Source: an uncultured Campylobacterales bacterium (lineage in GTDB: Bacteria > Campylobacterota > Campylobacteria > Campylobacterales > Arcobacteraceae). Taken from it: a DNA stretch of 64,000 nt. A program made the position numbers and the translations under genes. Positions 51,929 through 53,763 of this stretch are shown here, in pieces. The notes beneath the pieces were generated by a model that ran no database searches, was not told where the DNA came from, and saw nothing but the letters and a program-made list of their open reading frames with translations. Position 1 is the stretch's first letter, and each line of letters starts with the position of its first letter. Where the stretch lies: positions 1 to 64,000 of the forward strand of contig CANLWY010000006.1 in NCBI GenBank assembly GCA_947494995.1, in the 5' to 3' direction.

Positions 51929-52969
51929 TTGTATTCACAACTTACTAAAAAAACATTTGAAACTATCTTTGAAAAAAAATATATTTTAATTAAGGCTTTA
52001 TTAATACCTTTTATTCTGTTAACAATTATTGAGTATTTCTCAACTATTGAGGTAAAAGAGAGTATTGGTAGTGCAAATTATTATATTTTAATAGGGATTT
52101 CTTTTTTTATTACAATTATAATGTCAATAACTGTACATAGGATTTTACTTTTAGATGATAAAGAAACGCCAACTTGGGGAATTTATCAATTTGGTGTAAG
52201 AGAAGTTACTTTTACTTTAAAGGCTATTGGTCTTAGTCTTCTATTAGGACTTTTAGCAATGTTATTATTTTTTATAAGCAACTTATTTTCTTTGGCTTTA
52301 GGGAGTTTTTTAGGCGAAAAGGGTTCCTTGATTTTTCAAATAGTTTTATTTAGTATAATTGGAATTTTCCTTGCTATGATTTTTTCAAGGGTTTCTTTAA
52401 TTTTTCCTGCAATAGCAATTGACAAGCCAATGGATTTTACAGATGCTTTTGAAATTTCAAAAGAGTATAAACTTTTTTTATTTGTTTTTGTTCTTATAAT
52501 ACCTATAGTTTTTGCGATATTAGTAGGTTTGGTATATGGGTTGGCAATAAATTTTTTAATGGGTTTAATCTCTCAAAATCTAAGTGTTTTATTATCTTTA
52601 TTGAATATTTTTATTACAGTTTTTACAATAGCTTTTTTATCTACAGCTTATGAATATATTATGAATAAACAGCCTGAAAAAAAAGAAGAAATTTTAGAAT
52701 TAGAAGAGATAGAGTATGAAGAAGGAAATAATAGTTATAGAATAAATATTGATGATAGGTATGAAATCACTTTTAATGAAATAAAAGAGTCTTTACAAAA
52801 ACAGTATAATCAATTAGGATTTACAAATATTAAGCTTGATAAAAAAGATACTTGGATGTTGAAAAACCCTGAAATAGAAAAAGCTTATATTTTATTAAGT
52901 CATTCACAAAATAAATATATAGTAGAGACTTTTAATATTAATCAAAAACCTATTATTGATATTGAATAA
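51929..52969 (+). CDS. Six-helix membrane protein with soluble C-terminal domain
   Basis: A 346-residue protein. Hydrophobic segments at about 20-36, 49-69, 88-112, 128-150, 178-205 and 215-240 suggest six helices. 'RVSLIFPAIAIDKPMDFTDAF' (given in part) resembles the YciC/GlpQ-type membrane-domain proteins that recur in many bacteria. Residues 250-346 are soluble and acidic, ending 'KYIVETFNINQKPIIDIE'. The start is TTG with AAGGA seven bases upstream. It is monocistronic with its own promoter. The function is unknown. Confidence 0.65.
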   Translation: MYSQLTKKTFETIFEKKYILIKALLIPFILLTIIEYFSTIEVKESIGSANYYILIGISFFITIIMSITVHRILLLDDKETPTWGIYQFGVREVTFTLKAIGLSLLLGLLAMLLFFISNLFSLALGSFLGEKGSLIFQIVLFSIIGIFLAMIFSRVSLIFPAIAIDKPMDFTDAFEISKEYKLFLFVFVLIIPIVFAILVGLVYGLAINFLMGLISQNLSVLLSLLNIFITVFTIAFLSTAYEYIMNKQPEKKEEILELEEIEYEEGNNSYRINIDDRYEITFNEIKESLQKQYNQLGFTNIKLDKKDTWMLKNPEIEKAYILLSHSQNKYIVETFNINQKPIIDIE

Positions 52970-53000
52970 AAAAAGAGTTATTAAGAGATTTAAATAGAGT

Positions 53001-53024
53001 ACAAAAAGACTTATAAAAAAGTCT
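53001..53024 (-). terminator. Terminator of the ArsC/Spx-like selenoprotein gene
   Basis: On the minus strand AGACTT / AAGTCT (6 bp, loop TTTTAT) is followed by TTTTTG. The stem includes the last codons and stop of the gene at 53011-53349. Confidence 0.65.
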
Positions 53025-53349
53025 CTTTATACTCTTGTTCTTTGAAACCAACGATTACTTTATCATCTGTTTCAACTATTGGGCGTTTTAAAAGCATTGG
53101 CTCTTTGATAAGCCATTCTATTTTACCTTGTTCATCTAGATTTAATTCTTTTAAACCTAAAGACCTATATTTTGTTCCTCTTGAATTGAAAACTAAATCA
53201 ATTCCTGCTTTTTCTACCCAAAGTCTGATAGAGTCTGAAGTTGGAGTCTCTTTTTTTGTATCAAAAAACTCTACTTCTATATTGTTTTCCTTAAAAAACT
53301 TAAGGCTATTTCTAACAGAGCTTCAGGTTTTTATTCCATAAACCTTCAT
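53011..53349 (-). CDS. ArsC/Spx/YffB-family redox protein with in-frame TGA (probable selenocysteine)
   Basis: The frame reads 112 residues if TGA at 53323-53325 is decoded: 'MKVYGIKT-U-SSVRNSLKFF...'. In the ArsC/Spx/YffB family that place is the redox cysteine ('YGIKNC'). The rest is intact: 'FNSRGTKYRSL', 'KEPMLLKRPIV', 'VIVGFKEQEYKETFL', matching the family's 'NTRGT', 'KRP' and 'GF...Y' blocks and usual length (about 113-118). AAGGA lies seven bases before the ATG, and a terminator overlaps the stop. A stem-loop suited to SECIS follows the TGA. TGA is a true stop in neighbours (18613, 56538, 58097). The alternative is a Cys-to-stop mutation or sequencing error. Confidence 0.75.
53289..53322 (-). 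promoter_or_regulatory. SECIS-like stem-loop downstream of the in-frame TGA
   Basis: Reading the minus strand, 17 bases after TGA a perfect 6-bp stem CCTTAA / TTAAGG (53305-53300 and 53294-53289) encloses the loop GTTTT. A G followed by U at the start of a small apical loop, 16-37 bases from the UGA, is the known pattern for bacterial SECIS elements bound by SelB. The stem is AU-rich and short, so support is moderate. Confidence 0.55.
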
Positions 53350-53450
53350 CTCATTCCTTATAAAATGTCCCATTTTTGAAGGGACTTAAAATATTTGTTT
53401 ACTTTTTAATAGTGGGTGTGAAATCCACTTAAAAGTAGTAAAACCTAAAG

Positions 53451-53466
53451 AGCCTCAGAAGAGGCT
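53451..53466 (-). terminator. Terminator after gatC
   Basis: AGCCTC / GAGGCT (6 bp, 4-base loop) lies seven bases beyond the gatC stop. On the minus strand it is followed by CTTTAGGTTTT. The region between it and 53349 also has a weak AGTGG/CCACT stem and no other feature. Confidence 0.55.
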
Positions 53467-53472
53467 TTGTTG

Positions 53473-53763
53473 CTATTCGATTATTTTTGGTACGATAAAG
53501 TACCCGTCTTCACTTTTTGGTGCGTGTTCTAAGATATGATTTGATAGTTCTAAATCTTGTTTTGGTTCATCTTCTCTTAAAGGTGTTCCACCTTCAATAG
53601 TACTAAATGTAGCCTCAATATTAGACACATCAATCTCATTTAAGTTTTCAACAAAGTTAATAATATCAGCTAATTCTGATTTTAGATTCTCTTTTTTTGA
53701 ATCTTCAATCTCCAAAGAAGATAACTTTGTTAATTTGTCAATTAATTTATCATCAACTGTCAT
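53473..53763 (-). CDS. gatC: Aspartyl/glutamyl-tRNA amidotransferase subunit C
   Basis: A 96-residue subunit stabilising the GatA-GatB complex that converts misacylated Glu-tRNA(Gln) and Asp-tRNA(Asn). It begins 'MTVDDKLIDKLTKLSSLEI', with 'IINFVENLNEIDVSNIEAT' and 'LREDEPK' in the middle and 'APKSEDGYFIVPKIIE' at the end, as in GatC. Length fits (about 95). gatA and gatB are not adjacent. The ATG overlaps the end of the upstream gene by 11 bases. Confidence 0.92.
   Translation of the reverse strand: MTVDDKLIDKLTKLSSLEIEDSKKENLKSELADIINFVENLNEIDVSNIEATFSTIEGGTPLREDEPKQDLELSNHILEHAPKSEDGYFIVPKIIE

Follow-up and report, generated by a model that had tools for sequence, protein, structure and literature searches.

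The locus lies on the minus strand of the window, the 64,000-nt stretch of one contig of an uncultured Campylobacterales bacterium (Arcobacteraceae) that was analysed here, and its features are listed in Table 1. A reading frame runs from an ATG at 53349 to a TAA at 53013-53011 and holds a single in-frame TGA (53325-53323), its ninth codon, in the context YGIKT-TGA-SSVRNSL. Re-reading of the frame gave exactly the 112-codon gene that the preliminary description had reported, broken solely by this TGA, and the ribosome site named there was found 5 nt ahead of the ATG. The encoded protein has the motif UxxV and contains no cysteine, so the UGA position is its sole possible thiol or selenol. It scored 69 bits against the Pfam ArsC profile PF03960 (cut-off 24) and 94.8 bits against NCBIfam TIGR01617 (cut-off 75.05), which bore out the earlier statement that the conserved blocks of the family are intact.

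Table 1. Features of the predicted selenoprotein locus, in window positions.
Feature	Position	Strand	Details
Predicted selenoprotein gene, ArsC/Spx/YffB superfamily, 112 codons plus stop	53011..53349	-	Frame, profiles, orthologues
UGA codon 9, predicted selenocysteine at the catalytic position	53323..53325	-	Frame and orthologue alignment
bSECIS-like hairpin	53289..53305	-	Stem 53305-53300 with 53294-53289, loop GUUUU 53299-53295
AAGGA ribosome-binding site, 5 nt upstream of ATG	53355..53359	-	Read from the sequence
Terminator-like inverted repeat (17 bp) at the stop codon, where two convergent genes meet	52996..53035	-	
gatC-like gene, conserved upstream neighbor	53473..53763	-	
Antisense ORF, 99 aa, TTG start	53042..53341	+	Probable shadow of the sense gene

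Standard gene callers stop frames at UGA, and the gene is therefore readily overlooked. As had been pointed out, the opposite strand is open to annotation, and the antisense ORF does exist. It was rejected as a true gene: its frame has one stop across the gene span in the window and two to four in the 17 other orthologues that carry UGA at codon 9 (hereafter UGA copies). Antisense ORFs of the same length and start codon are present on the minus strand of two other UGA loci, L020 (1506-1805) and L126 (3009-3308), and in all three the ORF is probably a shadow of conserved sense codons.

At the 3' end, the inverted repeat forms an unbroken hairpin of 17 bp with two G-U pairs and an energy of -21.9 kcal/mol, which none of 200 shuffles equaled. 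The stop codon of the gene sits at the edge of its loop, and the neighbor on this side is a convergent ORF ending at 52969. A clear U tail is absent, and a terminator scan based on G+C content missed the repeat. Thus, of the terminator claimed earlier, the stable hairpin at the stop codon stands, and we treat it as a putative terminator. The promoter scan returned two sites, compared with a mean of four in shuffled sequences. The upstream neighbor, which we take to be gatC-like, is separated from the gene by 123 bp (53350-53472), and a terminator-like hairpin lies inside this gap at 53466-53451. This gap is smaller than 20 bp in, for example, the relatives L020, L034, and L126.

The genome to which the window belongs (G000; 3.17 Mb in 31 contigs) was then read for the selenocysteine machinery. 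ARAGORN called a tRNA-Sec with the anticodon TCA, which scored 46.8 bits in the Rfam model, 0.2 below the cut-off of 47. This tRNA gene shares a cluster with a selD-like gene, which has an in-frame UGA itself, on one side and a selA-like gene on the other, both named from our reading of their translations. At the end of selA starts selB, which scored 300.7 bits (cut-off 242.25). All four components whose presence had been set as a check, selA, selB, selD, and tRNA-Sec, were therefore found. A match to formate dehydrogenase alpha above the cut-off contained one UGA, as did each of two weaker matches. The UGA codons in the selD-like gene (L006, 457-1494) and in the formate dehydrogenase alpha gene (L168) are in frame, as in other selenocysteine users. 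Since these genes carry UGA and the machinery is present, UGA seems to be in ordinary use as a selenocysteine codon in this genome.

The orthologues of the gene were compared in 104 genomes of the family-level group f1, the family of the window. A match was obtained in 96 genomes; three of these had distant matches only and were left out, and the remaining 93 orthologues were all extracted and read. The catalytic codon was TGA in 18, TGT in 64, and TGC in 11 of them. The proposed alignment of homologues at this codon thus gave 18 TGA and 75 cysteine codons and nothing else. None of the 18 UGA copies had an internal stop besides codon 9. TGA at the same codon in 18 of 93 orthologues with no further internal stop is more than chance would give. 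Of the 19 genus-level groups in the set, eight include UGA copies, and both forms occur in three of these eight (g1, g2, and g19). A gatC-like gene adjoins in all 50 loci compared (L019-L068; 18 UGA and 32 Cys), which indicates that these are positional orthologues. In the Cys orthologue of G060 (L057), a TAA precedes the last eight codons of the usual frame.

Among the 153 pairs of UGA copies, 136 were of equal length and one had no defined dS. In the other 135 pairs, the median dN/dS past the UGA was 0.25 and the maximum was 0.53. The segment after the UGA is thus under purifying selection, and such low ratios indicate that it is translated and useful. The selB model matched above its cut-off in 16 of the 18 UGA genomes and in 52 of the 75 Cys genomes, a difference in the expected direction that was not significant (p 0.14), because selB is common in Cys genomes too. 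The two UGA genomes without selB above the cut-off were G095, where a match over model positions 83-579 fell below it, and G076, which is 74% complete.

Ten genomes, nine of the genus group of the window and G072, have a second, Cys-containing paralogue (L112-L121) that is 37-43% identical; none was present among the matches listed for the genome of the window. The search was also extended to 397 genomes of the class, where none of the matches listed outside f1 had an internal stop. A DNA pattern search of the same 397 genomes for the motif with TGA, which misses copies with a divergent motif (e.g., G059), hit five genomes, namely four known UGA copies of f1 and G421. The match in G421 was discarded as a chance hit, with two TGA codons in a row and no counterpart among the listed matches. 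Within what was searched, the selenocysteine form seems to be confined to f1.

Downstream of the UGA, the window copy can form a hairpin of 6 bp that begins 17 nt past the UGA, with a loop of 5 nt that is separated from the UGA by 23 nt. The published bSECIS model of bSECISearch has a loop of 3-9 nt, a stem of 4-16 bp, a G in the first two loop positions, and a distance of 16-37 nt from the UGA, with an energy of -7.5 kcal/mol or lower (PMC13188914, in part). The window hairpin lies within these limits for stem, loop, loop G, and spacing. The energy of the fold counted from the UGA was -4.6 kcal/mol with 40-45 nt, -6.8 with 50 nt, -8.5 with 55 nt, and -9.4 with 60 nt, so that the energy limit was missed with 50 nt of context and reached with at least 53 nt. 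The 60-nt fold was no better than its shuffles (z -0.73; 43 of 200 equally good), and an Rfam search of the gene region gave no match to a SECIS family.

A fixed position was also compared across the orthologues. Every one of the 18 UGA copies had all six pairs together with a G as the first base of the loop, compared with 5 of the 75 Cys copies (p 4.6e-15 by Fisher's test, uncorrected for relatedness). In the 18 UGA copies, the loop has 5 or 6 nt and comes 22-23 nt after the UGA, and, counted from the first UGA base, the stem ends at 37 nt. In 12 UGA copies examined by column, 72 of 72 cells were paired and the covariation score was 0.237, and none of 500 shuffles attained either value. Two pairs were changed on both sides (C-G to U-A and A-U to G-C) in these 12 copies, a number that 102 of 500 shuffles also attained, and the number of pair types was reached by all 500.

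In the window copy, the first loop base is +27, against +26 in the 17 other UGA copies, and the 5' arm is displaced by 1 nt compared with the relatives; the six pairs and the loop G are intact and G-U opens the loop. Sequence was apparently gained ahead of the stem and lost from the loop, which alters three residues relative to, for example, L023. Given the peptide and the codon use, the chance of the stem and loop G of the window is 0.002, and for the other 17 UGA peptides the two features appeared in 11-28% of draws. Six pairs are also possible in 22 of the 75 Cys copies, since the conserved peptide favors the stem, and the comparison indicates that the G opening the loop is what sets the UGA copies apart. 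The mean minimum free energy of the hairpin region was -7.0 in UGA copies compared to -5.0 in Cys copies. Several of these folds were a helix other than the conserved one, and we therefore relied on the fixed-position test. A first version of this test, with G at +27 alone, gave 11 of 18 UGA copies against 30 of 75 Cys copies and was not significant (p 0.12). The loop-G criterion behind the p value of 4.6e-15 was refined once the data had been inspected, and every sequence was permitted either of two registers of the 5' arm. The criterion agrees with the published model, but the test was not blind.

From these results we infer that selenium is actually inserted at codon 9, and we consider it very probable that this codon is read as selenocysteine. 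SelB with Sec-tRNA would read the UGA under the guidance of the hairpin 17 nt downstream, and selenocysteine would be placed where the relatives have the catalytic cysteine. Formally the frame is interrupted, and the gene could be a pseudogene in which a nonsense mutation hit the catalytic codon by coincidence. This explanation is very improbable in view of TGA at the same codon in 18 of 93 orthologues from eight genus-level groups with no other stop, the median dN/dS of 0.25 downstream, and the presence of the selenocysteine machinery. TGA is one base away from TGT or TGC, and a sequencing or assembly error at a cysteine codon would produce the same interruption. Such an error has the least probability of all, as the TGA recurs in 18 assemblies, including the single-contig genomes G036 and G091, and the hairpin differs between UGA and Cys copies. 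Selenocysteine at codon 9 is deduced from sequence, and the UGA might instead be read as another amino acid, such as Cys or Trp, by a suppressor tRNA. The tRNA-Sec with anticodon TCA between the selD-like and selA-like genes and the bSECIS-like hairpin after the UGA argue against this; a second tRNA with this anticodon may exist in the genome, but we hold such a reading to be about as improbable as a pseudogene.

The function of the protein was approached through profiles of the superfamily and a predicted structure. Matches below the cut-off were obtained for the arsenate reductase model TIGR00014 (ArsC; 48.2 bits, cut-off 106.05), for NF041106 (ArsC_rel_Se_1; 28.8 bits, cut-off 85), and for NF008107 (PRK10853 equivalog, YffB-type; 61.2 bits, cut-off 121), which we take to be the E. 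coli YffB model. The Spx models gave 27.9-30.1 bits against cut-offs of 123-159. Over 50 aligned members, the best E-value was 1.6e-8 for NF041106 compared to 3.7e-29 for TIGR01617. The invariant columns in this alignment of 50 sequences were G5, I6, Sec/Cys 9, V12, D30, N55, Y61, L66, K67, K88, R89, and P90. The AlphaFold model had a mean pLDDT of 96.1 and a pTM of 0.87, and residue 9 was placed immediately before a helix spanning residues 10-21. In a structure search with this model, the top PDB match was YffB of Pseudomonas aeruginosa (TM 0.92), followed by other ArsC-related proteins, with Spx at up to TM 0.86 and E. coli ArsC at TM 0.77. The predicted structure thus combines the two features that we used to define the YffB type, the YffB fold and a lone redox residue where helix 1 starts.

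Of the three arginines found in ArsC, the YffB of Brucella melitensis retains one; this protein has a lone cysteine and binds glutathione next to its active site, and its authors suggested a glutathione-dependent thiol reductase (PMC3169414, in part). The genome of the window has a GshB-like gene whose full-length match (224 bits) stays below the cut-off of 299, by which glutathione synthesis is only suggested; a separate Cys protein encoded there, L122, has a CxxS motif like that of ArsC. With no cysteine, a thioredoxin-like fold, and selenocysteine at the start of helix 1, the protein is most likely a one-center (monoselenol) thiol reductase. The single cysteine and glutathione binding of YffB, the GshB-like gene, and the separate CxxS protein favor the YffB type, and we regard a selenocysteine thiol reductase of this type as the probable function, ahead of an arsenate reductase or a Spx-type regulator. 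In such a reductase, the thioredoxin-like fold would carry selenocysteine at the start of helix 1 with no cysteine, the selenolate would attack a disulfide or a small oxidized substrate, and glutathione or another external thiol would resolve the intermediate. Both the reductase chemistry and the external thiol donor are deduced from these likenesses.

Two other functions were weighed, both of which accept selenocysteine at codon 9. A selenocysteine-containing arsenate reductase (ArsC) would agree with the common superfamily and the Pfam ArsC match, and two reviews name a selenocysteine arsenate reductase with the UxxS motif (PMC9312934 and PMC13188914, both in part). We consider it unlikely, because the score of TIGR00014 was less than half of its cut-off, the nearest structure was YffB rather than E. 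coli ArsC, and the same genome has the separate CxxS protein L122. The other candidate is a regulator of the Spx/MgsR type, which would sense redox state and control transcription by binding RNA polymerase. Its name is borne by TIGR01617, and Spx structures do match the model. Spx acts through a CxxC switch, whereas the present protein has one redox residue and no CxxC, and all Spx models remained far below their cut-offs. The same argument was made for the single-cysteine protein of B. melitensis by its authors (PMC3169414, in part), and we give the regulator the same low chance as the arsenate reductase.

The protein is like YffB of P. aeruginosa (PA3664, PDB 1rw1) and B. melitensis (2kok) in fold (TM 0.92 and 0.76), length, and place of the redox residue, but these have a cysteine where the UGA stands here, and identity in the structural alignments is 29%. 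The best sequence match among solved structures was Staphylococcus aureus SACOL0876 (PDB 2m46, "Arsenate reductase, putative"; E 1.1e-18), which has a cysteine in a CxxC motif instead of the UGA. Selenoproteins of the ArsC superfamily are known as well. An ocean survey described ArsC 1 with UxxS and ArsC 2 with UxxC (PMC2398784, in part), and two selenocysteine families of ArsC type appear in the reviews PMC9312934 and PMC13188914 (in part). The first of these proteins, the selenocysteine arsenate reductase GOS ArsC 1 (TIGR00014), shares the superfamily but differs by UxxS in place of UxxV. NF041106, entitled "ArsC family (seleno)protein", also covers a selenoprotein of the superfamily, but with UxxC where our protein has UxxV and no second cysteine; the protein called "Arsenate reductase 2" (UxxC) in GOS appears to be identical with it. 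In both cases the model score was below the cut-off, as given above. ArsC-like selenoproteins of Deltaproteobacteria (Desulfotalea and Desulfuromonas; PMC1794560, in part) form an ArsC-like family with selenocysteine and were likened to ours by description alone. A selenoprotein with UxxV, "TsoY", is represented by NF047643 (PMC13188914, in part), and this model gave no match at E 0.001 to the window protein or to any of the 50 members.

For Epsilonproteobacteria, the selenoproteins named are formate dehydrogenase, SelD, SelW, thioredoxin, DUF466, and a thiol peroxidase candidate (PMC4607533, in part), and the portion of this text considered, supplements aside, does not contain ArsC, arsenate, or Spx. 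Among papers on selenium use, ArsC, arsenate reductase, Spx, and Arcobacter are absent from the main texts of PMC9402790 and PMC5029168, and ArsC, arsenate, Spx, Arcobacter, and Campylobacter from that of PMC12013277. A literature search, mostly of records short of full text, found no earlier report of a selenocysteine form of the YffB-like branch. The preliminary description had called the gene a probable new selenoprotein. Its reading of the UGA is supported by the machinery, the orthologues, and the hairpin, but selenocysteine proteins of ArsC type had already been reported from other branches, and what seems to be new is the YffB-like UxxV branch with selenocysteine, in Campylobacterota.

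The five Cys copies that have both the stem and the loop G all belong to genus g19 (G093, G094, G096, G097, and G098; loci L035, L046, L048, L072, and L073), compared with an expectation of 1.5 among 75 from codon sampling. The UGA copy of g19, G099, falls inside a starred clade of eight rows together with these hairpin-bearing Cys copies. In the simplest reading, the g19 hairpins behind TGT or TGC are likely fossils of a former UGA copy in which selenocysteine was exchanged for cysteine; the order may also have been the reverse, from cysteine to selenocysteine. At least five changes between the two forms were counted on the best gene tree, two of them forced by starred branches; the tree is poorly resolved and no direction can be read from it. 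At codon 17, the 18 UGA copies had AGG (10), AGU (7), or AAG (1), while 66 of the 75 Cys copies had AAA (41) or AAG (25). We see the chances as evenly balanced that one positional orthologue swaps selenocysteine and cysteine repeatedly within a single bacterial family and that the recoding hairpin has steered the protein. If so, the gene would be a natural record of selenocysteine loss that can be read from sequence, and it would also record a SECIS element constraining its own coding sequence.

If the gene encodes a selenoprotein, it would add one more redox selenoprotein to Campylobacterota, and the 18 selenocysteine and 75 cysteine versions of this one gene would constitute a natural experiment on keeping or dropping selenium.
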